A stretch of 36,235 nt of DNA from NCBI GenBank assembly GCA_017470505.1, contig JAFUYO010000043.1, positions 1 to 36,235 on the forward strand, read 5' to 3'. The notes under the pieces were generated by a model. The model was not told the origin of the DNA. It saw nothing but the letters and a program-made list of their open reading frames with translations, and did not search any database. The position numbers and the translations under genes were made by a program. Of the stretch, positions 263-12,122 are shown one piece after another; the stretch's first letter is position 1, and each line of letters opens with the position of its first letter. Source of the DNA: Butyrivibrio sp. GTDB lineage: Bacteria; Bacillota; Clostridia; Lachnospirales; Lachnospiraceae.

Positions 263-523
263 TTAATCCGCCTTTCCCTGAAGGAAATTCTCAAGGTCAG
301 CTATCGCTGAGTCCTCATCACTCCCATCTGCAATAACAGTTACTTCCTCTCCCGAAGTAAGGCTCAGAGTCATCATGCCCATTATGCTCTTGCAGTTTAC
401 CTTTTTGGACTGTGCCTCAATGTGAACCGTGCTCTCATACTTGCTCGCGAGCTGCACCAGTTCAGCGACGGGTCTCGCCTCAAGCCCTCTGGGCAGTTTG
501 ATTTCGATAGATTTTGTGATCAT
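263..523 (-). CDS. crh: Crh-like HPr paralogue (Glu15, Ser46)
   Basis: Small 86-residue protein with the whole HPr fold. The usual Enzyme I phosphorylation motif G-[IL]-H-A-R-P reads G-L-E-A-R-P, so residue 15 is Glu instead of the catalytic His. The HPr kinase site is intact at Ser46 (KSIMGMM). In Bacillus subtilis the equivalent protein Crh carries Gln15, cannot transfer phosphate in the PTS, and acts only as a CcpA co-effector once HPrK phosphorylates Ser46. Crh is also encoded next to whiA and the rapZ homologue, as here. I therefore infer a regulatory, non-transport role, with HPrK encoded in the same operon. The start has a strong AGAGGAGG ribosome site. It is the last gene of the operon, 17 bp after whiA, and is followed by a terminator. 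A constitutive negative charge from Glu15 mimicking phospho-His is possible but unproven. Confidence 0.85.
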   Translation of the reverse strand: MITKSIEIKLPRGLEARPVAELVQLASKYESTVHIEAQSKKVNCKSIMGMMTLSLTSGEEVTVIADGSDEDSAIADLENFLQGKAD

Positions 524-540
524 ATATCCTCCTCTGATAA

Positions 541-1479
541 TTATGTGCGCAGTCTCTCTGCGAGTTCTGAGAGCTTGCGCAGCCTGTGATTAACTCCTGA
601 CTTGCCAACAGGCGGGTCGAGATATGTCCCGAGTTCCTGAAGTGTTGCGTCCGGATGCTCGAGCCGTACCTGTGCCATCTCCTTCAGCGGGCGCGGCAGG
701 TCCTTAAAGCCGTAGTTGTCCCTTATATAGGTTATATCGTCTATCTGTTTGGTCGCAGCGTTCACGGTCTTGGTGATGTTCGCCACCTCGCAGTTAACCC
801 TTCTGTTTATGGAATTGCGCATGTCCCTCAGTATCCGGAGATTCTCCAGATTCATCAGTGAAACCGGCGCTTCCATGATGTTCAGAAGGTCCACGATGTC
901 GGCGCCCTCCTTGACATAGAGCACATAGTACTTCTTGCGCACAACTATACGCGACTCTATATCAAAGCTGCCTATCATCTCTTTGAGCTGCAGGGCCTGT
1001 TCCCTGCTGCCACAGACAAACTCCAGATGATACCCCTTGTTCGGATCGCTGATTGACCCAATACATAAAAAGGCATCTCTGAGGAAAGCTCTTTTGCAGC
1101 ACGAAGCTCGGGTGACAACCATGTTAATGCCTCTCTCAAAATCCCTTAAAGCGCCCTGCTCCAAAATCCTGGTCGCCTTGAGGAGAGTTTCCAGGTCCTC
1201 CTGCGGGATGTCGACAAGCCGCAGTATGCGGCCGTTTCTGTGAACACCTTCGGTTTCCTCTAAAATGCTACCACTTATATTAAATGCTTTTTTTAATAAT
1301 GTAAAGAACTTTCTAAGTACCAGGGCGTTGTCAGTTGGCATATACAGTGACATTCTGCCATCCTCCATGACCACCGTGCCCATAAACACTATGATCGCGG
1401 ACAGCTCCGCAATCCGGCAGTGCCTGGAAGAGCCGATGTGCCTCGAAAGCTCCTCTTTTACCTCCGATGAAAAAGACAT
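541..1479 (-). CDS. whiA: WhiA, DNA-binding regulator
   Basis: 312 residues, the usual WhiA length, opening MSFSSEVKEELSRH as in clostridial and bacillar WhiA. The family combines an N-terminal LAGLIDADG homing-endonuclease-like fold that has lost nuclease residues (roughly residues 1-200) with a C-terminal helix-turn-helix. The segment around residues 225-310 (NREV-type helices, then GKSGVNHRLRKL) is the DNA-binding end. In Streptomyces it controls sporulation genes; in Firmicutes it influences chromosome segregation and cell division. It starts 3 bases after the rapZ stop, suggesting translational coupling, and is followed by the Crh-like gene, the same neighbours as in B. subtilis. Confidence 0.93.
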   Translation of the reverse strand: MSFSSEVKEELSRHIGSSRHCRIAELSAIIVFMGTVVMEDGRMSLYMPTDNALVLRKFFTLLKKAFNISGSILEETEGVHRNGRILRLVDIPQEDLETLLKATRILEQGALRDFERGINMVVTRASCCKRAFLRDAFLCIGSISDPNKGYHLEFVCGSREQALQLKEMIGSFDIESRIVVRKKYYVLYVKEGADIVDLLNIMEAPVSLMNLENLRILRDMRNSINRRVNCEVANITKTVNAATKQIDDITYIRDNYGFKDLPRPLKEMAQVRLEHPDATLQELGTYLDPPVGKSGVNHRLRKLSELAERLRT

Positions 1480-1482
1480 CTC

Positions 1483-2352
1483 TCACCTTGCCTTTATAAC
1501 ATCCCTGTGAAAAATCTTGAGCCCGTACTTGCCGCCTGCATCGCGGAGCCTCTTATAGACCTCGTTTGCAATGGTGACGCTCCTGTGCTGTCCGCCCGTG
1601 CAGCCGATCGCCACAACAAGCTGGTACTTGCCCTCCTGCACGTACCCCGGGATCAGGAACGTGAGCATGTCTGTCAGCTTGTCCACGAACTCGGCGCAGG
1701 CAGGAAAACTCTTAACGTAGTCCTGTACGGCTGCATCGTTACCTGTCTGGTGCTTTAAGTTCTCGATGTAGTAGGGATTTGGAAGGAACCTGACGTCAAA
1801 CACAAGGTCTGCGTCATGCGGTATCCCGTACTTAAAGCCAAAGGAGAGAACCTGCACCATGAGGGAGTTGTAGCCCTCGTTCCTGACAAAGATCTTATCC
1901 AGCTCCTCCTTGAGTTCACGGGTCAGGAGATTAGAGGTGTCGATGACGTAGTCAGCCTTCTTCTTGACGTCAGAGAGGACTTCTCTCTCCCTCTCGATGC
2001 CGTCCTCGAGCCTGTCTCCCGCGTTGTTCATCGGGTGGATACGCCTCGTCTCCTTGTATCTCTTTATCAGCACCTCGTCGCTGGCGTCCATGAAAAGAAC
2101 TTCTACCGGGATCCCCCTCTCCCTGAGTGAGTCAATGATGCTGGCGACCTCCTCAAAGCGCTGGCCCGCCCTCGCGTCAACCCCGAGGACGACCTTGGTT
2201 ATCTCCGAGTCAGGCATTGTGATAAGCTCCGTGAACTTGCCGATAAGCGACACCGGAAGATTGTCGACGCAGTAAAAGCCCGCGTCCTCAAGCATATTGA
2301 TGGCAGTGGCCTTTCCTCCGCCGCTCATGCCCGTTACTATTATAAATCGCAT
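1483..2352 (-). CDS. rapZ: RapZ/YvcJ-family nucleotide-binding protein
   Basis: 289 residues starting MRFIIVTGMSGGGKA with the family signature FYCVDNLPVSL at about residues 27-37 and the C-terminal IGCTGGQHRSV motif. Members bind and hydrolyse GTP/ATP. In E. coli RapZ is an adaptor that delivers the small RNA GlmZ to RNase E; in B. subtilis YvcJ affects competence. Its role in clostridia is not established. The P-loop is unusual: the residue after the lysine (K14) is Ala15 rather than Ser/Thr, with Thr16 following. The start codon overlaps the murB stop (TGATG), so translation is probably coupled. Confidence 0.92.
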   Translation of the reverse strand: MRFIIVTGMSGGGKATAINMLEDAGFYCVDNLPVSLIGKFTELITMPDSEITKVVLGVDARAGQRFEEVASIIDSLRERGIPVEVLFMDASDEVLIKRYKETRRIHPMNNAGDRLEDGIEREREVLSDVKKKADYVIDTSNLLTRELKEELDKIFVRNEGYNSLMVQVLSFGFKYGIPHDADLVFDVRFLPNPYYIENLKHQTGNDAAVQDYVKSFPACAEFVDKLTDMLTFLIPGYVQEGKYQLVVAIGCTGGQHRSVTIANEVYKRLRDAGGKYGLKIFHRDVIKAR

Positions 2353-3263
2353 CAGAATTCTCCAATCATTATGACCTCGGGTTCGAGTTCAACTCCCCGG
2401 GAAGAATAAACCTTCTCTCTGACTGTCTGTATCAGCCCATAAATCTCAGCTGATGTGGCAGAGCCCTTATTGATGACAAAGCCGCAGTGCTTTTCCGAGA
2501 CTGCAGCTCCTCCTATTGAAAAGCCCTTGAGCCCTGCCTCCTCGATGAGCTTGCCGGCAAAGTAACCCTCAGGTCTCTTAAAGGTTGAGCCCGCGCTTGG
2601 GTAGTCAAGCGGCTGTTTCTCGCGCCGCTTTTCTGAAAGCTCCTTTATGCGGGCGGTTATCTCTTCGCTCTCTCCCTTTTCTAGCCTGAAAAGAGCCGAC
2701 AGAACAAGATAGCCGTTTTCTTTAAGTGCGCTCGTCCTGTACCTGAAGCTGCACTCATCGCATGAGAGGGTAATAACTTCCCCTCCAGGGGTGAGGGCCT
2801 CAACGCTCTCTGTGATCATCTTCATCTCGCCGCCGTAGGCGCCTGCGTTCATTATCATGGCGCCCCCGACTGTCCCGGGGATACCCGCGGCAAATTCAAA
2901 GCCTGTGAGGGCGCTGCGGGTCGCAAGGTTTGCAACCTGACTGTTCAAAACTCCTGCTCCCGCTCTTATCCCGGTTTCATTCACAACAAAGAGATCACTT
3001 AATCCTTCAGTCGAGACCGCAACTCCCTGATAGCCCCTGTCGGAGACCAGGATATTGCTGCCGTTTCCGAGGAAAAAGTGCTCTGTCCTGCTGTCGCGAA
3101 GAGCGGTGGCAGCGCTAAGTAGCTGCTCTTTAGTCTTTGGCCGTATAAATAAGCTTGCAGGCCCACCGGTTTTAAACGTGGTGTGCCTGCTCATAGGTTC
3201 ATCTGCGACCACGGCCCCATCGCCGACGATCGCCTTTAATCTTTCTGTTATTTCGCTGTTCAA
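2352..3263 (-). CDS. murB: UDP-N-acetylenolpyruvoylglucosamine reductase
   Basis: 303 residues. The FAD-dependent, NADPH-using enzyme reduces UDP-GlcNAc-enolpyruvate to UDP-MurNAc in the cytoplasmic part of peptidoglycan synthesis. Visible features are the N-terminal MSRHTTFKTGGPA motif, the FAD-binding stretch LGNGSNILVSD, GIPGTVGGA, the FRYR segment, the catalytic serine in YPSAGSTFKRP, and a C-terminal ELEPEV glutamate. Length and motifs fit the short B. subtilis-like MurB class. It sits 12 bp after the ROK kinase gene and overlaps rapZ by the stop/start codons, so it is part of the same transcript. Confidence 0.96.
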   Translation of the reverse strand: MNSEITERLKAIVGDGAVVADEPMSRHTTFKTGGPASLFIRPKTKEQLLSAATALRDSRTEHFFLGNGSNILVSDRGYQGVAVSTEGLSDLFVVNETGIRAGAGVLNSQVANLATRSALTGFEFAAGIPGTVGGAMIMNAGAYGGEMKMITESVEALTPGGEVITLSCDECSFRYRTSALKENGYLVLSALFRLEKGESEEITARIKELSEKRREKQPLDYPSAGSTFKRPEGYFAGKLIEEAGLKGFSIGGAAVSEKHCGFVINKGSATSAEIYGLIQTVREKVYSSRGVELEPEVIMIGEF

Positions 3264-3275
3264 AGTAGTAATCCT

Positions 3276-4211
3276 TTATCCGATAAGAAGCTTGGCTGCC
3301 CCGTATACTCCCGCGTCATTTCCGAGCTTTGCCAGGGCAAACTTTGCTTCGGCGCATCCTGAGAATGCGTATTTTTTGAAGCTGGGCATCAGAAGGTCAA
3401 AGAGCATATCTCCTGCCTTGGATACTCCGCCGCCCAAAACGATTATCTCGGGGTTTGTGACTGTGGCAACAGCTGCAATTCCCTTTCCGAGGTAGTATCC
3501 GTACTGCTCCGCAGCCATCCTGGCCATGTTGTCACCGTTCTTGGCAGCGTCAAAGATATCTCTGCACTCGTACTCTTTCTCTCGAAGGACGCTCGGCTCA
3601 TCGTACATTGCAAGGACTCTTCTCGCGAGCCTTACTGCGCCGGTTGCGCTTGCGTACATCTCAAAGCAGCCGTGCTTGCCGCAGCCGCACTTCTCGGGCT
3701 CGTCGTCGACAAGGTGGATGTGTCCGATCTCTCCGCCTGAACCCTTGGAGCCGCTAAGTATCTTGCCGTCAATGATGATGCCGCCGCCAACTCCGGTTCC
3801 GAGTGTGACAAGAAGGAGGTTATTGTAGCCCTGTCCGCCGCCCTTCCAGGCTTCGCCGAGTGCTGCAACGTTGGCGTCGTTTCCAGCCTTTACGGGGAGC
3901 TTAAGTGCAGAGTGGAGCTCGTTAACAACGCTTATCTTCTCCCAGCCCAGGTTAACCGCCTGATAGCACATTCCGTCAGAGTTTACAGCGCCCGGAACTC
4001 CCACTCCTGCGCCGACAACCTCTGTGTCCTCAATTTTTCTCTCCTTCATCTTAGCTCTGATGGATGCCGCGATGTCGGGGATGATCCTGCTGCCGTGATC
4101 CTCAGTGACAGTGGGTATCTCCCAGAACTCCACCTTCTCACCGGTCTCAGTCAGAAGCCCTATCTTGACGGTCGTTCCGCCGACGTCCGCACCGAAAACG
4201 TATCTTGCCAT
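3276..4211 (-). CDS. glk: ROK-family glucokinase
   Basis: 311 residues, ROK family. The N-terminal phosphate loop is FGADVGGTTVKIGL (residues 6-19), the catalytic Asp is in GNDAN (D112), and the zinc site is H164 with the cysteines of CGCGKHGC (C175, C177, C182). There is no N-terminal helix-turn-helix, so this is a sugar kinase rather than a ROK repressor. Most likely it phosphorylates intracellular glucose to glucose 6-phosphate. Substrate choice within ROK kinases (glucose, N-acetylmannosamine, allose, fructose) cannot be settled from motifs alone. Location between hprK and murB ties it to carbon control and cell-wall precursor supply. A GGGAGC ribosome site precedes the ATG. Confidence 0.88.
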   Translation of the reverse strand: MARYVFGADVGGTTVKIGLLTETGEKVEFWEIPTVTEDHGSRIIPDIAASIRAKMKERKIEDTEVVGAGVGVPGAVNSDGMCYQAVNLGWEKISVVNELHSALKLPVKAGNDANVAALGEAWKGGGQGYNNLLLVTLGTGVGGGIIIDGKILSGSKGSGGEIGHIHLVDDEPEKCGCGKHGCFEMYASATGAVRLARRVLAMYDEPSVLREKEYECRDIFDAAKNGDNMARMAAEQYGYYLGKGIAAVATVTNPEIIVLGGGVSKAGDMLFDLLMPSFKKYAFSGCAEAKFALAKLGNDAGVYGAAKLLIG

Positions 4212-4258
4212 AACTTTGCTCCCTTCTTTTTTACCTTGTTATATTTACTCCGTGATAC

Positions 4259-4382
4259 GGATTGCTCCGCTTCGCTCCCGCAATCCTACAGACATGCGGA
4301 ATCCGCGCTGTTCGCGCTACTTCCTTATGTCTGTTCGCATCCCAAATTTCTGCAGCTTGCCGTGCAAGCACGCAGCTGCAGA
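4259..4382. repeat. Run of three hairpins between hprK and the ROK kinase gene
   Basis: Three inverted repeats follow one another in the 187-bp gap: GGATTGC/GCAATCC (4259-4265, 4280-4286), ACAGACAT/ATGTCTGT (4288-4295, 4327-4334) enclosing the small palindrome GCGGAATCCGC (4296-4306), and an imperfect TTCTGCAGCT...AGCTGCAGAA stem (4348-4382). None is followed by a clear T-run, so they look more like RNA-processing or repeat-type structures than terminators. Confidence 0.5.
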
Positions 4383-4398
4383 AGCTTGGTCTGCTTTA

Positions 4399-5343
4399 TC
4401 ACTCATCATCCTCTTCATTTCGTCTTCTCGCGAGCGAATTCTGAACCCTGTTGTAGAGCTCCTGCGCTGCGTTGTAGCCCATCGCCTTCTGTCTGTGGTT
4501 GACTGCTGCCGATTCGCAGATTACGGCGAGGTTCCTTCCGGGACGGATGGGGATCCTGTGGCAGACAACCTTGTTGCCCAGGTACTCCGTGTACTCCTCC
4601 TCAAGTCCCAGCCTGTCGTATTCCTTATCCTTGTCCCAGTCCTCGAGCTTGATGACAAGGTCTATGTTCTGTGTCTCCCTTACGCTGGAAACACCGTAGA
4701 GGGTCTTGACATCTATGATGCCGACGCCCCTCATCTCTATGAAGTGCTTGGTTATGTCGGGCGCAGAGCCAATTAGCGTCTCCTCGCTGACCCTTCTGAT
4801 CTCGACTACGTCGTCGGAAACGAGACGATGTCCTCTCTTTATCAGCTCTATGGCGGTCTCTGACTTGCCGATGCCGCTCTCACCTGTTATGAGAACGCCG
4901 ACACCGTATACGTCAACAAGTACGCCGTGGATCGAGATGCAGGGCGCAAGCTTGACATTGAGCCATCTGATCACCTCCGCCATGAAAGCTGAGGTCGATT
5001 TCTTGGTGATAAAGACCGGGACCCTCTCCTCGACCGCGATCTTTACAAAGAGCGGATCCGGTGTGAGCTCCCTGCAGAAGACGACCGCAGGTATGTCAAA
5101 GGAGAGAAACTCCCTGAACATCTGCTCTTTTTTCTTGGCAGGAGTCGACTCCATGTAGGTGTATTCTACAAAGCCGATGACCTGGAGCCTGGTCGCCTCA
5201 AAGTGCTCAAAATATCCCGCGAGTTGAAGCGCAGGCCTGTTTATATCCGGCTGGCTTATCCTGATCTTCTTGATGTCCAGCTCGGGTGTAAGGTCCTCAA
5301 GCTTCTGCCTCTCAACTATTTCCTTTAAACTGACACTCGACAT
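4399..5343 (-). CDS. hprK: HPr kinase/phosphorylase
   Basis: 314 residues. The bifunctional enzyme phosphorylates Ser46 of HPr and Crh when glycolytic intermediates are high and removes the phosphate otherwise, setting CcpA-dependent catabolite repression. Visible features are the N-terminal MurF-like domain (about 1-130), His139 in ISIHGVLVDVYG, the P-loop GESGIGKS (154-161), Asp residues in VSDDVV, and the family signature near 202-211 (IEMRGVGIID). It sits in the same operon as the Crh-like gene (263-523), one of its expected substrates. A second HPr-like protein at 7510 lacks the serine target. Start ATG has an AGAGG site 5 bases upstream. Confidence 0.96.
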   Translation of the reverse strand: MSSVSLKEIVERQKLEDLTPELDIKKIRISQPDINRPALQLAGYFEHFEATRLQVIGFVEYTYMESTPAKKKEQMFREFLSFDIPAVVFCRELTPDPLFVKIAVEERVPVFITKKSTSAFMAEVIRWLNVKLAPCISIHGVLVDVYGVGVLITGESGIGKSETAIELIKRGHRLVSDDVVEIRRVSEETLIGSAPDITKHFIEMRGVGIIDVKTLYGVSSVRETQNIDLVIKLEDWDKDKEYDRLGLEEEYTEYLGNKVVCHRIPIRPGRNLAVICESAAVNHRQKAMGYNAAQELYNRVQNSLARRRNEEDDE

Positions 5344-5476
5344 ATGTACCTCTTCTGTCTCTCACACAGCCGGCAGCTTATGAACTGTTACATAATATAT
5401 TTATGCCGGCCGCTGACTGAACAATAACATAATCTTCTTTACAACGCCTAAATGATAACATAGATAGGCTCTATCT

Positions 5477-7348
5477 TCAAACGTTTTGGTGGAAAAAAGC
5501 GTATATTTGCTCTGCCACATTTTCGGGGATTTCGGGCACATTGGACAGCTCCCTGGCAGATGCGTTTCTGATGTCCTCAATCGACTTAAAGGCGCGCATC
5601 AGGGCCTTCCTCCTTGCGGGGCCGATCCCCGGGATGTCGTCGAGCGAGCTCTTTACCTGAGCCTTGCTGCGAAGCGAGCGGTGGTACTCAATCGCAAACC
5701 GGTGGGCCTCGTCCTGGATCCTCGTGATCAGCTTGAAGGCCTCTGACCTCGTGTCTATCGGCAGCTCTACATTATTATAGTAGAGTCCCCTCGTCCTGTG
5801 GTTGTCGTCCTTGACCATGCCGCAGACAGGGATCGATATCCCGAGCTCATCAAGGACCTGCAGGCAGATGTTGACCTGTCCTCTTCCGCCGTCCATCAGT
5901 ATCAGATCCGGGAACTTCGTAAAACTCCCGTACTTGGCATCGATGTCCCTGACCTCCAGCTCGTGCCTCTCCTCGATGCCGTGGAGAAGGCGCCTGGTGA
6001 GAACCTCGTGCATACAGGCGTAGTCATCGGGCCCCGTAACGGTCTTTATCCGAAACTTTCTGTAGTCGCTCCTCTTGGGCTTTCCCTTCTCGTAGACCAC
6101 CATCGAACCCACGTTTGCAAAGCCGCTTATGTTTGAAATATCGTAGGCCTCCATCCTCGTGAGCCCTTTTATACCAAGGAGCTGCTCTATCTCCTTGACG
6201 GCTCCGATGGTGCGGCCCTCCTCTCGCTTTATCCTCTCCTTGTCCTTGGACAGAACGAGGGAGGCGTTCTCCGCGGCAAGCTCCATGAGTTTCTCCTTCT
6301 GCCCCCTCTCGGGAACGGAGATGTAAACCCTCGAGCCCTTTCTCTGAGTCAGCCACTTCTCGATTATCTCCATGTCCTCAATGGGCTCGGGGAGCAGAAT
6401 CTGCCTCGGGATAAAAGGTGTCCCCGCATAGAACTGCTTGACGAAGTTCATCAGTATTTCGCCTGAAGGGTTCTCGGAGACATGGGTCATGTAGAAGTGC
6501 TCCCTTCCGATGAGCCGCCCGTCCCTGACAAAAAAGACCTGAACCACCGCGTCCTTGTCGTCCGATGCGATCGCAATGATGTCCTTGTCCTCCATCGAGG
6601 AGTCAGTCATCTTCTGCTTCTGCGCAACCTGCCTCACGGAAGACAGCAGATCCCTGTATTTGGCTGCGTTCTCAAAATCAAGTGTCTCCGACGCATCCGC
6701 CATCTTCTGCTCAAGCTCTTTGGTTATGACGGAGTAGTTGCCGTTCAGAAAGTCCAGAGCCTTGTCGATCCTCTCCCTGTACTCCTGCCTCGTAACATTC
6801 CCCGTGCAGGGCGCGCAGCACTGCTTCATGTGGTAGTTGAGGCACGGCCTCTCAAGTCCTATGTCCCTCGGAAGGACCCTGTTGCAGGTGCGCAGCCCGT
6901 AGAGCTTGTTGATGAGCTCAATCGTGTCCTTCACCGCCGCAGCGCTCGTGAAGGGCCCGAAGTACCTGGACTTGTCCTTCTTCATGAGCCTTGAGAACAG
7001 AACCCTGGGATACTCCTCAGATACCGTCACCTTGATGTAGGGATAGGTCTTATCATCCTTTAAAAGAGTGTTATACCTCGGGCAGTGCTCCTTGATGAGG
7101 TTGTTCTCAAGAACCAGAGCCTCGAGCTCTGAGTCCGTGACGATGTACTCAAAGCGCTCTATCTGCCTGACCATCTGGTCAATCTGCGGACCCCTCCCGA
7201 TGTTCGCGCGAAAATAGCTCCTAACCCTGTTGTGAAGATTTATCGCCTTCCCGACATACATGATGGTGTCATTCTTGTCGTGCATTATATACACTCCCGG
7301 TTTGTTCGGGAGCTTTTTTAACTCTTCCTTAATATCAAAATTACTCAT
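5477..7348 (-). CDS. uvrC: Excinuclease ABC subunit C
   Basis: 623 residues, normal length. It makes the dual incisions of nucleotide excision repair with UvrAB. Domains in order: GIY-YIG nuclease (about 13-95, PGVYIM and MYVGKA), cysteine cluster ([20 protein letters not shown], about 155-180), UVR UvrB-binding motif (about 200-235), RNase H-like nuclease (about 385-540), and C-terminal helix-hairpin-helix pair (about 570-620). It is the first gene of the operon leading to hprK. Its ATG lies directly behind a long hairpin whose right arm contains the only obvious Shine-Dalgarno-like GGTGG, so initiation may be modulated by RNA folding. Confidence 0.96.
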
Positions 7349-7357
7349 ATAAAAATA

Positions 7358-7411
7358 TTAAACCACCAAAGCTCCGACTTTGAAAGAGGATGTCGAAGAA
7401 TGGTGGTTTAA
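7358..7411 (-). terminator. Hairpin just upstream of uvrC: terminator or attenuator
   Basis: A perfect 11-bp inverted repeat (TTAAACCACCA at 7358-7368, TGGTGGTTTAA at 7401-7411) encloses 32 bases. On the minus strand the distal arm is followed by a TATTTTTAT tract and then the uvrC ATG. It can end the PTS transcript. For any read-through transcript it would also hide the GGTGG ribosome-site candidate of uvrC. Confidence 0.55.
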
Positions 7412-7448
7412 TAAGAGGAAAAAAGGATACCAGGATAGGGTCTGAAAG

Positions 7449-7475
7449 CTTATAGATAGTCTATGACAGGGTCAA
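7449..7475 (-). promoter_or_regulatory. uvrC: Weak candidate promoter for uvrC
   Basis: Minus-strand TTGACC (7470-7475) and TATAAG (7449-7454) are spaced 15 bases apart, shorter than the ideal 17. They lie between the HPr-like gene and the hairpin before uvrC. Transcription starting here would include that hairpin in the leader. Confidence 0.3.
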
Positions 7476-7509
7476 AAGTCCGACTCGTACGTCTTTTATA
7501 TATAGCGCT

Positions 7510-7767
7510 TCAGAAATTGTCACGGGCGTACTTTAGAAGTGCCTTAGCCGCCTCTTCTTCGTCTTCGCCCTCGCAGATTATTGTGATAAGTCCGCCGTTT
7601 TTGACGCCCAGACTCATGATTCCGAAAACGTGCCTGGCATCTGCCGTCTGCCCGTTTCCCTCTGCGGTTATGACCGAGGAATATTTTCTTGCAAGCGCTG
7701 CCATGCCTCCTGCCGGTAATGCGTGTACACCCTCAGGGTCTTTTACTGTATAGCAAAACTTTTTCAT
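7510..7767 (-). CDS. HPr-like phosphocarrier of the mannitol-type operon (His15, no Ser46)
   Basis: 85 residues of HPr fold. The phosphorylatable His15 is present in GVHALPAG, although the usual Arg17 is Leu. The position equivalent to Ser46 is His (RHVFGIMSL), so the HPr kinase site is missing. By family logic it can accept phosphate from Enzyme I and pass it to the EIIA encoded at 9107 but should escape Ser46 control. It is therefore the mirror image of the Crh-like protein at 263. The start codon overlaps the stop of the upstream dehydrogenase gene (ATGA), so the two are translationally coupled. Loss of Arg17, which normally stabilises phospho-His, may reduce transfer activity. A purely regulatory role is the alternative. 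Confidence 0.82.
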   Translation of the reverse strand: MKKFCYTVKDPEGVHALPAGGMAALARKYSSVITAEGNGQTADARHVFGIMSLGVKNGGLITIICEGEDEEEAAKALLKYARDNF

Positions 7768-9026
7768 ATCTCTACCTTAAAGTGCTCGAAGAGGATCTTT
7801 TCTGCCTCAGGATTCCAGAGTCCTGAGTGTGCCTTGCAGCTATCGTCAAGCTTTTTGAAGAACGGGTCTGTTTCGCCAAGCTTTCCAAAGTCGTCGATCG
7901 CTGTGAGAGGCATATCTATCTGAGTGTAGCACAGCTTCTTGCCGCCGGGGATATTGGGAAGGTTGCAGGTAGTCTCAGCTACTGCGTCAAGGCCTCCAAT
8001 GTGTGTTACCATGACGGAAGGATTTATCTCTCCCCTGGCGGCAAGCGTCAGGGCCTCAAGAAGGTCATCGTTGTTGCCGCCCGTGGTTCCAAGAATATGT
8101 GTGCTTGTGTAATGTGCGTTGTAAAGATTTATGTCAGCCTTGAACTGGTTGTCTGTGGGTCCTGCAAAGAAGTTCATGCAGCCGTCAAATGCAAGGAGTC
8201 TGTCTCCCATCTCAGCCACGCTCCTGACAGGGATGTATACGAATACGTCGTCATACCCGTGGCCCTCTGTGATCTCCATGAGCTTTTCTTCGGCATCATC
8301 TCCAGAGGTGTTAAAGTATATGAGCTCAACGCCGTTTTCTTTTGCAAACTCAGGGCTCAGAACCTGCGCCGCCCTCTTAAGCCTGGCGTCATCGACATCT
8401 GTTACGACGATCCTCTTAGGCTTATTCTCAAAGCGGATTCCATAGTTTACAGCTGAGAGTCCCATCGGACCGCACCCTCCCATGATGAGGATGTTTCCGC
8501 CCTCCTTGGTTCCCATTGTGTGGTTGTAGTTCTGCTTGTTGGTGTGGTAGTTGGCATGATATCCGCCGATTACGCAGCTGACGGGCTCTCCGAGGGATGC
8601 CATGTAGAAGCTGTCACCGTTATAAGGAAGCAGTGCATCCAGCTCCATAACCTCGTGAGGCATGATGCAGTAGGTTGCATCTCCGCCGCAGAAGCGGTAT
8701 GAGTATCCGGGTGAGTCGAGCTTGCCCTGGTAGTTGAGGGCGGGCTGAAGCGCCCACTTATCGCCGACCTTGTACTTGTCCTTCCACTTTTCACCGACTT
8801 CCACGATAACGCCTGAGCATTCGTGCCCTGTGATGATAGGATTAACGTCTATGTCCTGGGGCGCTCTCTTGTGCTTCTTGCCCTGCCTGGCAAGCTTGTA
8901 GGTCGACATGCAGATGCTGTCTGTCATGACCTTTACCAGAATCTCATCGTCCTTTATCTCGGGAAGCTCGAACTCCTCAAGTCGAAGGTCCATCTCTCCG
9001 TACATTCTTACTGCTCTTGTCTTCAT
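7764..9026 (-). CDS. SorE-like zinc-binding medium-chain dehydrogenase
   Basis: 420 residues of the zinc-dependent medium-chain dehydrogenase superfamily. Catalytic zinc ligands are visible as C39 (DSICMS), H68-E69 (GHE) and E147 (LGEPVS). The nucleotide fold has MGGCGPMG at about 192-199. The structural-zinc cysteine loop is absent. Opening MKTRAVRMYGEMDLRL and the ALNYQGKLDSPGYSYRFCGG stretch resemble L-sorbose-1-phosphate reductase (SorE) as I remember it, so the substrate is probably a hexitol or ketose phosphate made by the PTS. In a mannitol-type operon the expected enzyme would be the unrelated mannitol-1-phosphate dehydrogenase MtlD, which is not in the window. This protein may replace it, or the transporter may carry another polyol or sorbose. 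AGGAG ribosome site precedes the ATG. Confidence 0.78.
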   Translation of the reverse strand: MKTRAVRMYGEMDLRLEEFELPEIKDDEILVKVMTDSICMSTYKLARQGKKHKRAPQDIDVNPIITGHECSGVIVEVGEKWKDKYKVGDKWALQPALNYQGKLDSPGYSYRFCGGDATYCIMPHEVMELDALLPYNGDSFYMASLGEPVSCVIGGYHANYHTNKQNYNHTMGTKEGGNILIMGGCGPMGLSAVNYGIRFENKPKRIVVTDVDDARLKRAAQVLSPEFAKENGVELIYFNTSGDDAEEKLMEITEGHGYDDVFVYIPVRSVAEMGDRLLAFDGCMNFFAGPTDNQFKADINLYNAHYTSTHILGTTGGNNDDLLEALTLAARGEINPSVMVTHIGGLDAVAETTCNLPNIPGGKKLCYTQIDMPLTAIDDFGKLGETDPFFKKLDDSCKAHSGLWNPEAEKILFEHFKVEI

Positions 9027-9106: not shown

Positions 9107-9529
9107 TTACTCAGCTTCAAAAAAGCTGCTGATCTCTTCTTCGTTCATCTTGAGCAGTTTCTCGACACCGTCTTTCTCCGAAAACGTCATTGCTATCTTC
9201 GAGAGGACCTTTAGGTGCTCATCGCCGACCGCTGCTATTCCTATTACCACTTTTGCTTTTTCGCTTGCTCCCCACTCCTGTCCCTTGGGAAAGGTCATGA
9301 GCACAAGCCCTGTCTTTTTGATGTCTTTTTTGGCCTCCTCGATACCGTGAGGAATTGCCACCTCGTTCCCGATATATGTGTTAAAAACCTTCTCTTTATC
9401 GAGCATCGCCTGTGTGTAATGCTCGTTTGTGTACCCCTGTGAAGTGAATATTTCGCCGATCTTTCTGATCACATCTTCTTTGGCCATCGGCTCCTGGTTG
9501 ATAAAGATATTTTTTGCTTCTAGAATCAT
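9107..9529 (-). CDS. mtlF: PTS mannitol/fructose-type EIIA
   Basis: 140 residues, a single EIIA domain of the mannitol/fructose class. The phosphorylated His61 lies in the family motif GNEVAIPHG. It takes phosphate from HPr and passes it to the EIIB domain fused to MtlA. The upstream gene is the broken mtlR (14-bp gap) and a GGAGGG ribosome site precedes the ATG. A free-standing EIIA matches an MtlA lacking its own A domain, as found at 10719. Specificity (mannitol against a related hexitol) depends on the EIIC and is not set by this subunit. Confidence 0.9.
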   Translation of the reverse strand: MILEAKNIFINQEPMAKEDVIRKIGEIFTSQGYTNEHYTQAMLDKEKVFNTYIGNEVAIPHGIEEAKKDIKKTGLVLMTFPKGQEWGASEKAKVVIGIAAVGDEHLKVLSKIAMTFSEKDGVEKLLKMNEEEISSFFEAE

Positions 9530-9543
9530 TTTGCCCTCCGTTT

Positions 9544-10663
9544 CTACAGACCGTTAAGCTGCTCAGTAAAGTAGGTCTTAAGTATCTTTTGTAATTTATC
9601 CCGAATGCCGTCCTCGTCGCCCTGCTTGAGGGTACTTAGGAACGCCTCATCTTCTATTATCGCGCTCGACACTCTTCCGAGCATCTCCGCGTTTTGTCCT
9701 CTGTTCTCATCTATTGGCATTGTCATGCACAGCACTGCCCTTATCCCGTTCAGCTTTTCATTTTGAAAAAGGCTGCCTCCCTGGGACGTGGCCGTCACTA
9801 TCTGACAATCTCTGACTGCTTTACTTCTACAATGGAACAGTGCTATCCCTATCTCGGGAAAGAGCTGAGTCATTACCTGCTCTCTCGCGATAATGTCTGC
9901 AGAAAGTACTGCTGCCGCCTTTTGTGTATCCGTCAGATCTGCCGCAAGAAGCCGGATCAGCGCCTCAAGCTGAATATCCTGTGGCACCTTCAGATGATGA
10001 TATCTTCTGATAACCCCCTTTACCCTGGTGATTATCCCGTTTATCTCATCGAGCTGTCTTGTGAAGTCGTTGTTCTCCTGTCTTGCCGGCATTGATGAAT
10101 ATTCGTCGATCTTGACACCGATCTGCAGAACATCCTTCTGCGTGATCAGTGGATTTACCAGACAGTAATCAACTCCCAGGTTGTCCACTTCAATACTTGA
10201 GATAAAAAAATCTGTCCTGGATATCACGTGCGGACTGATCTCGTCAATTCCGTACGCCTTAAAAGATATATCCCATCCCTCGAATCTGCTCTTTAGCTTG
10301 GCCATCATGAGCCTCGCGACTCCGAAGCCGCTCGCGCAGATAACTCCGATAGTGACAGATCTCTTTTTTCTCCTGCGGGATTCTATCTTCTCCTTTGCTG
10401 CGCCGAAGTGCATTGCAAGGTACCCGATCTCCGCTTCGCTTACCTGTAGTCCTGTCTTCTGTGTTATAACCCCTGCCGCCCTCTCCCTTTCTGCGCACAA
10501 GGGTAAGATCGTACTTTGCAAGTATCCCTGAAATGTATTCAGCTTCCCTTAAAATTGTGCGTTTGCTTACACCCAGAGCGTCAGCGACTTCTTTGTCAGT
10601 CGCCGGCTGCTCTGCGCGGAGTAAATATAATAATATTTCTCTGATGCGTGGTGTAAGTTCCAT
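9544..10663 (-). pseudogene. mtlR: Disrupted mtlR-type PRD activator (internal deletion plus frame change)
   Basis: Two pieces of one MtlR/BglG-like regulator lie in different frames. The 5' piece starts at ATG 10663 (GGAG ribosome site) and encodes a helix-turn-helix of about 60 residues (KEVADALGVSKRTILRE). The 3' piece, open from about 10521 to 9544, begins within the end of PRD2 (EIGYLAMHFGAA) and continues with an EIIB-like domain (VICASGFGVARL) and an EIIA-like domain (ALFHCRSKAV). Intact family members are near 650-700 residues. Here the second HTH, PRD1 and most of PRD2, some 300 residues, are absent. The junction falls near 10465-10485 in a G-rich stretch and needs a +1 (or -2) shift. 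An internal deletion is the simplest reading. A sequencing error cannot restore the missing domains. The downstream EIIA gene is intact. Confidence 0.8.
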
Positions 10664-10718
10664 GTCTGCTCCATTTTTCCGGAACAATCAGCTAACCGGT
10701 ATGTCTTTCTGTTGTTCC

Positions 10719-12122
10719 TTAGAATTTGAGCTCCTCTGCCAGCCGGTCATATTCAGGTGCTGACATGAAGTTGCTTATTGTGATTATCCTGGCCTTCGGT
10801 GCGCTCTTTTTGGCCCTTCCTGCCAGATCCTTGTGTGTTACAACTATCTGTGTGCCATCAGGTATCTCTGAAACAGATGCGTGATTTACCTCGATATCCG
10901 TTCTTCCAACCTCAGCGAGCTTCTTCCTCAATACGGTTGCTCCCATTGCTGAAGAGCCCATTCCTGCGTCGCAGGCAAATACAATCTTTTTGATATCTGA
11001 AGAATCAGTCTTTACAAGGTCATCTGCAATAGTCTTAACTTCTGAAACTGCTACGCCCTTTGACTGAGCCTTCATCTGCTTCATCTCTTTCTCAGAGTCT
11101 GCGAGAGACTGCTTTGAGTTTGAAAGCCTGATGATGGGAGCTGCGATCACGAATGAAACAGCTGCTGCAACTACTACTGAGAGAAGAACCATGAAGGTTG
11201 ATCCCTTAGGAGCCATTCCAAGGTAAGCGATGACAGAGCCGGGTGCAGGAGGTCCTGCAAGACCAAGCCCCGCTGCTGTGTTGAAGATCATGGCTGCCAC
11301 TGAACCGCCGATTGTTGCAAGTAAAAGGAGCGGGTTCATCAGTACATAAGGGAAGTAGATCTCGTGGATTCCGCCAAGCAGGTGAATGATGAGTGCTCCG
11401 GGTGCTGAATCCCTGGTTGTCTTGTCTTTGGAGAAGAGCCAGTAAGCAACAAGTACGCCTGTACCTGCGCCGGGGTTAGTCTCGATCATGTAGAAGATTG
11501 ACTTGCCGGCTGAAGCAACCTGCTCAGCTCCGAGAGGAGTGAAGATACCGTGGTTGATCGCGTTATTAAGGAAAAGAACCTTGGCAGGCTCAACGAATAC
11601 AGAAACAAGAGGCAGGATGTTGTTGTCAACAAGAACTGCTACGCCTGCGTTGAGGACTGCAAGTACACCACCCATGAAAGGTCCGATGATGTAGTAACCG
11701 ATGATTGCAAGGAGTAGACCTAAGATACCAACCGAGAAGTTGTTCACCAGCATCTCGAATCCGGCAGGGATCTTGCCCTCAACTGCCTTGTCGAACTGCC
11801 TGATAACCCATCCTGCAAGAGGTCCTGCAACCATTGCGCCCATGAACATTGTGTACTCTGTTCCGCAGATAACACCGATCGTCATGATCGCGCCCATAAC
11901 TGCTCCACGGGCTCCGCCTACCATTTTACCACCCTGGTAAGCGATGAGTACGGGAAGAACGTATGTAAGCATCGGGCCTACGATAGAACTAAGAGCTGCA
12001 TTTGGAAGCCAGCCGCTGTCAATGAATAATGCAGTGAGGAGCCCCCACGCGATAAATGCTCCGATATTCGGCATGACCATTCCGCTCAGGAACCGACCAA
12101 AGCTTTGTACTTTTTCTTTCAT
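10719..12122 (-). CDS. mtlA: PTS mannitol-type EIICB transporter
   Basis: 467 residues. The N-terminal EIIC membrane domain (about 1-335, several hydrophobic segments) carries the mannitol-class signature GGIHEIYFPYV with E254. A linker rich in K/E/S follows, then an EIIB domain whose phosphocysteine is C384 in ACDAGMGSSAMG. There is no fused EIIA; that function is encoded separately at 9107. It imports and phosphorylates mannitol or a close hexitol, giving the 1-phosphate in the cytoplasm. It is the first gene of the operon, with an AAGGGG ribosome site, a leader of about 145 bases, a good promoter at 12276-12304 and an MtlR-like operator upstream. Specificity for mannitol is by family, not proof. 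Confidence 0.93.
   Translation of the reverse strand: MKEKVQSFGRFLSGMVMPNIGAFIAWGLLTALFIDSGWLPNAALSSIVGPMLTYVLPVLIAYQGGKMVGGARGAVMGAIMTIGVICGTEYTMFMGAMVAGPLAGWVIRQFDKAVEGKIPAGFEMLVNNFSVGILGLLLAIIGYYIIGPFMGGVLAVLNAGVAVLVDNNILPLVSVFVEPAKVLFLNNAINHGIFTPLGAEQVASAGKSIFYMIETNPGAGTGVLVAYWLFSKDKTTRDSAPGALIIHLLGGIHEIYFPYVLMNPLLLLATIGGSVAAMIFNTAAGLGLAGPPAPGSVIAYLGMAPKGSTFMVLLSVVVAAAVSFVIAAPIIRLSNSKQSLADSEKEMKQMKAQSKGVAVSEVKTIADDLVKTDSSDIKKIVFACDAGMGSSAMGATVLRKKLAEVGRTDIEVNHASVSEIPDGTQIVVTHKDLAGRAKKSAPKARIITISNFMSAPEYDRLAEELKF

Follow-up and report, generated by a model that had tools for sequence, protein, structure and literature searches.

The DNA window analysed here is a stretch of 36,235 nucleotides from Butyrivibrio sp. 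(Lachnospiraceae; contig JAFUYO010000043.1 of assembly GCA_017470505.1). Its minus strand carries two genes of the HPr family, one at 263-523 (86 amino acids) and one at 7510-7767 (85 amino acids), with hprK, the gene of HPr(Ser) kinase/phosphorylase (HPrK), in between. HPr is the textbook small protein that couples sugar uptake to catabolite repression via two mutually opposing sites, His15 and Ser46. Read directly, the codons of the 263-523 gene give Glu15 and Ser46, and those of the 7510-7767 gene give His15, Leu17 and a His in place of Ser46. These residues and the position of hprK had been reported in the first-pass annotation of the window and were confirmed. A single PF07475 match was detected in the whole genome, so that this hprK is the only copy found.

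The 263-523 protein, with GLEARPV at residues 13-19 and NCKSIMGMM around Ser46, aligned ungapped to the PDB chain of Crh 2ak7 (E=1.8e-19), and its five best PDB matches were all Crh. Like Crh, it has a residue other than His at position 15 and Ser46 within a KSIMG patch, and its gene lies directly downstream of whiA. The best-scoring NCBIfam model was NF010354, which we take to be the Crh model, and its score of 94.1 bits did not reach the cut-off of 123. The nearest named Crh-like protein was 92% identical (among 80 of at least 542 named loci). Ser46 was present in all 80 of these named proteins and His15 in none, which is no independent count, since the loci had been scanned for Glu or Asp at residue 15 or for KSIMGMM. 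The 7510-7767 protein has a GVHALPA loop, containing His15 and Leu17, and ARHVFGIM around residue 46. It aligned ungapped to PDB 3le1 (E=9.8e-15) and scored 69.3 bits with the HPr family model TIGR01003, above the curated 47.9. Because both alignments to PDB chains of HPr or Crh are ungapped, the residue numbering of the two proteins is safe.

We compared residues 15 and 46 by genomic context in 80 genomes that each represent one genus of the family, the window genome among them. All 73 genomes with a whiA match were examined, and an HPr gene adjoined whiA in 61 of them (the other 12 had no neighbouring HPr, some at contig ends). None of these 61 proteins had His15 (Glu in 48, Asp in 7, Gln in 3, and Ala, Asn and Val in one each), and Ser46 was present in every one. 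The loci of Enzyme I (EI) were read in part, the last nine read including eight without an adjoining HPr, and yielded 50 EI-adjacent HPr genes in 44 genomes. His15 was kept in all 50, and residue 46 was Lys in 18, Arg in 17, Ala in 3, Gln in 3, Thr in 1, Gly in 1 and Ser in 7. A named example of this carrier type is Lachnospira eligens ATCC 27750, with consecutive genes for phosphofructokinase, an enzyme II (EII), an HPr with His15 and Lys46, and EI. This comparison across the family had been proposed in the first-pass annotation.

The pattern was different outside the family. There, 24 EI-adjacent HPrs were found in 29 loci read, all with His15, and Ser46 was present in 21 of the 23 readable; the two exceptions had Lys and Arg, one of them in a genome of the same class. 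The 11 whiA-adjacent HPrs detected outside the family (70 of 113 whiA-bearing genomes examined; one HPr a weak 21-bit match) all had both His15 and Ser46. Fisher tests comparing the family with the outside genomes, with kinship not accounted for, gave 2.1e-10 for the Ser46 of EI-adjacent HPrs and 2.2e-12 for the His15 of whiA-adjacent HPrs (weak match excluded). A plasmid search returned HPrs of less than 60% identity, the informative named case among them being that of L. eligens.

A tree of 263 proteins was built with columns 15 and 46 masked (80 columns, unrooted; nine gap-rich rows and the weak match omitted). The trees and the entropies below use the set before the final context recount, which took in 20 further stretches. 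That recount brought the whiA-adjacent HPrs from 59 to 61 and contributed one EI-adjacent HPr with Ser46 and another seven EI-linked two-site HPrs of the genus. The whiA-adjacent proteins of the family formed a Crh-like clade of 72 members (support 0.98). A carrier clade of 71 members (support 0.60) had His15 throughout, with residue 46 being Lys in 30, Arg in 25, His in 7, Ala in 3, Gln in 2, Ser in 2, Thr in 1 and Gly in 1. A third clade of 61 members (support 0.59) lay around proteins encoded beside a ybbR-like gene, with His15 in 59 and Ser46 in 60. The HPrs encoded in mannitol-type (mtl) operons of the genus, such as the 7510-7767 protein, formed a clade of 8 members (support 0.997). When the functional segments (columns 13-18 and 45-53) were removed, the clades persisted: Crh-like with 72 members (0.947), carrier with 64 (0.774), third type with 53 (0.871) and mtl-operon (0.982). 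The seven EI-adjacent HPrs with Ser46 include two third-type proteins and one protein of the window genome, encoded on contig 41. Two side observations concern these lineages. The third lineage has a near-invariant KSVLSVLGA together with His15, and one genus member (G205, L438 3085-3309) encodes a further HPr-like protein that has Thr at residue 15 and KSIMGVMSL and falls within the Crh-like clade.

The conservation of the two functional regions was complementary. Entropies were calculated with own-genus extras and outside-family members omitted, and neither they nor the counts take shared ancestry into account. In the carrier clade, the His loop had 0.21 bit (rank 3 of 72 windows) and the Ser46 helix 1.50, against a mean of 1.50. 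In the Crh-like clade, the His loop had 1.29 and the Ser46 helix 0.09 (rank 1 of 71, the most conserved), against a mean of 1.45. Both regions were conserved in the third clade (0.31 and 0.28). Therefore each specialised lineage lost constraint over a region and not at one residue alone.

No EI match was detected in 7 of the 80 family genomes, two of which have a completeness of 60-67%. Six of the seven were read and showed no carrier-clade HPr; the seventh (G023) has two unread HPr matches. The Crh-like protein was found in four of the seven, always with Glu or Asp at residue 15, with Ser46 and with HPrK in the genome; that of G004 is divergent and does not lie beside whiA. In two EI-less genomes, the third-type protein (L312, L315) has lost His15 (to Gln and Asp) and Arg17 and has kept AKS(V/I)LSVLGA. 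Such a pattern would be expected if the three types act as carrier only, as signal only and through both sites. The Crh-like protein was also present in 60 of 75 HPrK-bearing genomes (two more in the final recount) versus none of the five without HPrK, although the genes are often neighbours, so that missing contigs could yield the same pattern. A complete split, in which every match to the 7510-7767 protein (E up to 0.001) was read and none had both sites, was observed in 7 of 80 genomes (G009, G014, G017, G040, G064, G070 and G072). Among these, G064 is 61% complete, and for G072 a further check with the HPr model added short His-less proteins. In 22 further genomes the split is undecided or different.

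A search of the window genome for a canonical HPr and ptsI, as the first-pass annotation had suggested, returned five HPr-family members and one ptsI; the genome is 84% complete, and further HPr genes may be missing. Three of the five lie outside the window, and two of these have both His15 and Ser46. One, on contig 8, adjoins a ybbR-like gene; the other, on contig 41, lies between ptsI and the gene of a phosphotransferase system (PTS) EII, presumably of the fructose type. Two ideas were rejected by this search, namely that the genome has only two HPrs and that its EI-linked HPr is of the Ser46-less type. In addition, contig 15 (1456-1686), next to mtaB- and thiI-like genes, encodes a short HPr-like protein that lacks the His loop and has AKSIMGIFSL, a second His-less, Ser46-type protein. 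A relative was found in each of six family genomes searched, including G044, which has no EI, HPrK or whiA match. The first-pass annotation had also proposed that the coupling of transport and repression is split between the two window proteins in this genome. As worded there, that part was not supported: the contig 8 and contig 41 HPrs keep both sites, and so does the EI-linked HPr in 12 of 12 genus genomes read. The coupling would therefore be divided in the family and probably not abolished in the window genome.

In the operon of the 7510-7767 gene, mtlA is followed by a broken mtlR-like gene and by genes for an EIIA and a dehydrogenase; the HPr gene comes last, and its start and the stop of the dehydrogenase gene overlap by 4 bases (Table 1). 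The order mtlA-mtlR-EIIA-dehydrogenase-HPr-uvrC-hprK-ROK-murB-rapZ-whiA-Crh was identical in six other genus genomes, and a seventh showed the same order for the portion on its contig. The names rapZ, murB, ROK, uvrC, mtlR, mtaB, thiI and ybbR are those we presume from the families of the genes. The mtlR-like gene is about 1.1 kb in two frames here versus single open reading frames of about 2 kb in seven relatives, which reflects either a deletion with a frame change or an assembly fault.

Table 1. Features of the window around the two HPr genes.
Feature	Position	Strand	Details
Putative Crh-like HPr	263-523	minus	86 amino acids; Glu15, Arg17, Ser46; KSIMGMMTL; directly downstream of whiA
Glu15 codon (His15 position) of the 263-523 gene	479-481	minus	GAG
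Ser46 codon of the 263-523 gene	386-388	minus	AGC
whiA	541-1479	minus	TIGR00647, 286.6 bits
rapZ (yvcJ)-like gene	1483-2352	minus	open reading frame, presumed name; position kept in six other genus genomes
murB-like gene	2352-3263	minus	open reading frame, presumed name; syntenic
ROK-family sugar kinase-like gene	3276-4211	minus	open reading frame, presumed name; syntenic
hprK, HPr(Ser) kinase/phosphorylase	4399-5343	minus	TIGR00679, 375.2 bits (cut-off 240)
uvrC-like gene, between hprK and the second HPr	5477-7348	minus	open reading frame, presumed name; syntenic
Carrier-type HPr	7510-7767	minus	85 amino acids; His15, Leu17, His46; last gene of a mannitol-type PTS operon
His15 codon of the 7510-7767 gene	7723-7725	minus	CAC
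Leu17 codon of the 7510-7767 gene	7717-7719	minus	
His46 codon (Ser46 position) of the 7510-7767 gene	7630-7632	minus	CAC
Zinc-type dehydrogenase gene, mtl operon	7764-9026	minus	best NCBIfam match NF041097, 79 bits; no model above cut-off
mtlF-like PTS EIIA gene (mannitol/fructose class)	9107-9529	minus	NCBIfam mannitol/fructose EIIA matches, all below cut-off
mtlR-like regulator gene	9544-10687	minus	presumed name; two overlapping open reading frames in different frames, 9544-10521 and 10259-10687
mtlA, mannitol PTS EIICB	10719-12122	minus	NF011663, 629.6 bits (cut-off 589)

Taken together, the family-wide residue pattern, the complementary constraint and the EI-less genomes make it likely that the two window genes belong to separate specialised HPr lineages, the 263-523 gene to the Crh-like and the 7510-7767 gene to the carrier lineage. 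Neither gene is peculiar to this locus. The same three lines of evidence support the first-pass proposals that one paralogue may be a pure HPrK-type signal and that the other may be a carrier beyond the reach of HPrK at residue 46. With comparably good confidence, we expect from the sequences that HPrK would phosphorylate the 263-523 but not the 7510-7767 protein, and that EI would phosphorylate the 7510-7767 but not the 263-523 protein. The 263-523 protein would not be phosphorylated by EI at residue 15, would be retained as an HPrK target at Ser46, and would report the HPrK signal independently of PTS flux; it may thus serve as an HPrK-dependent signal protein without carrier function. The 7510-7767 protein would pass phosphate via His15, probably to the mannitol-type EII of the same operon, and would not be switched off through phosphorylation at Ser46. 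A dedicated role for this neighbouring EII is suggested by the operon. The contig 8 and contig 41 HPrs probably still couple the two functions.

Several observations weigh against this interpretation. The 7510-7767 protein has Leu17, whereas Arg17 is present in all 50 EI-adjacent HPrs of the family; this loss of Arg17 makes it a less certain carrier than its relatives. The mtl-operon HPr gene is present in seven other genus members, and with the window's copy included, His15 and Leu17 occur in 8 of 8 proteins (His46 in 7, Lys46 in 1), so that the conserved Leu17 leaves doubt on the rate and the partner of the 7510-7767 protein. The carrier-type HPr was not found in 5 of 13 genus members (short weak matches below 33 bits unread), and the EI-linked HPr with both sites throughout the genus genomes read has been described above. 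A protein with His15 and Ser46 is present in at least 51 of the 80 family genomes, the window genome among them. Of the 73 genomes with EI, 22 showed no carrier-clade member among the HPrs read, with incomplete reading in some cases. The support of the carrier clade is modest (0.60 and 0.77). Finally, no protein in the 80 family genomes, 75 of which have HPrK, passed the cut-off of the model for CcpA, the partner expected for Ser-phosphorylated Crh.

The acid at residue 15 of the Crh-like proteins could possibly mimic phospho-His. A neutral replacement after the loss of carrier function, with no such mimicry, is a serious alternative, to which we give somewhat less than an even chance. It agrees with the Gln, Ala, Asn and Val also seen at this residue (6 of 61), with the Gln of B. 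subtilis Crh, and with an entropy of 1.03 bit at site 15 in the Crh-like clade, whose His loop is averagely conserved. However, 55 of the 61 whiA-adjacent HPrs of the family have an acid here. Glu is two base changes away from His, and both Glu codons are used (26 GAG and 20 GAA). All four EI-less genomes with a detected Crh-like protein have the acid as well, which also weakened an avoidance of EI as the cause of Glu15.

The partner of the Crh-like protein may not be canonical CcpA, because residue 15 is acidic and no CcpA equivalog was found in the 80 genomes with a model that is strict. B. subtilis Crh is described as also regulating MgsA (PMC10714963). The Crh-like protein could accordingly act on non-CcpA targets, for example metabolic enzymes, as Crh does on MgsA, or with WhiA or RapZ, which we regard as plausible but rather less probable than its negation. 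In its favour are the absence of any protein above the CcpA cut-off in the 80 genomes and the two genomes (G050 and G072) that have HPrK and the Crh-like protein but no match to the CcpA model at E<=0.001. On the other side, LacI-family matches to this model were detected in 78 of the 80 genomes, and one of these matches may act as CcpA; the model is so strict that only 2 of 14 control genomes passed it. The best match in the window genome resembled a LacI-family regulator (3dbi, 157 bits) and CcpA (152 bits) to about the same degree. Glu15 might be paired with a change at the CcpA residue facing His15, which we take to be Asp296. The pattern used for this CcpA segment was poor; it found the segment in 15 of 30 loci (a first pattern in 3 of 30), and the segments shared no CcpA-like motif.

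It is unlikely that the two-site HPrs of contigs 41 and 8 do all the real work and that the window proteins are decaying or minor paralogues: the existence of both two-site proteins, the Ser46 of the EI-linked HPr in all 12 genus members read and the absence of a detected mtl-operon HPr in five of 13 would fit this, but the mtl-operon HPr keeps His15 and Leu17 in all eight members having it, and the Crh-like protein is not decaying, because its Ser46 helix is almost invariant (0.09 bit) and a whiA-adjacent copy was found in 61 of the 73 whiA-bearing genomes of the family and in all 13 genus members.

The 263-523 protein shares with B. subtilis Crh the HPr fold, the lack of His15, the Ser46 within KSIMG and the gene position directly downstream of whiA, which for crh is stated in PMC10714963. 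The differences are that its clade mostly has Glu or Asp at residue 15 where B. subtilis Crh has Gln, that the family proteins form their own clade, that NF010354 scored below its cut-off, and that no CcpA equivalog was found in the family. The tree bears on the origin of this likeness. With the two columns masked, B. subtilis Crh grouped with His15-bearing whiA-adjacent HPrs (support 0.80), and the smallest group uniting the whiA-adjacent proteins also took in 12 EI-linked HPrs from outside the family (support 0.41). With the functional segments removed, the Crh-like clade of the family united with B. subtilis Crh and the whiA-adjacent proteins from outside (support 0.716; 83 of 84 plus one other protein), the single protein left out being the same-class whiA-adjacent protein of G105. 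The placement of B. subtilis Crh among His15-bearing proteins makes two losses of His15 probable. The simplest reading of the tree would be an ancestral whiA-adjacent HPr with both sites and two separate losses of its His15, one in the Bacillus line and the other in the family. The 263-523 gene thus sits at the crh position of B. subtilis, yet its His15 was probably lost separately; the protein appears Crh-like in function and place, although the tree tends to favour parallel loss and the match stayed below the curated cut-off.

The 7510-7767 protein shares its fold, His15 and the GVHALPA loop with HPr (PtsH) of Firmicutes, and differs in having neither Ser46 nor Arg17 and in being encoded in a mannitol-type operon and not beside ptsI. 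In FPr and DhaM-HPr, which we take as further parallels, an extra HPr is likewise encoded with one sugar system, but the 7510-7767 protein is free-standing and scored far below the FPr and DhaM models. In C. difficile, a member of a different family, HPr is phosphorylated in vivo at the serine that corresponds to Ser46 (PMC8730811). Neither such a split nor an EI-linked HPr that lacks Ser46 across the family was found described in the open literature, most subscription journals being outside the scope, which is weak evidence of novelty.

A broader reading, which we hold tentatively and would not yet call probable, is that the HPr sites are divided in the family. The EI-linked HPr of many genera would be immune to HPrK, and the Crh-like protein, with an acidic mimic of phospho-His15, would signal alone to a partner other than canonical CcpA, so that catabolite signalling would be uncoupled from PTS flux, fully in some genera. 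A carrier mostly without Ser46, together with a near-invariant Ser46 in a separate Crh-like protein, offers a natural test of what the coupling in HPr is for. The EI-less genomes with the signal protein, and the genomes with only a carrier and a signal protein, make this question directly testable. For this gut and rumen family, our results suggest caution against presuming a Bacillus-type repression.

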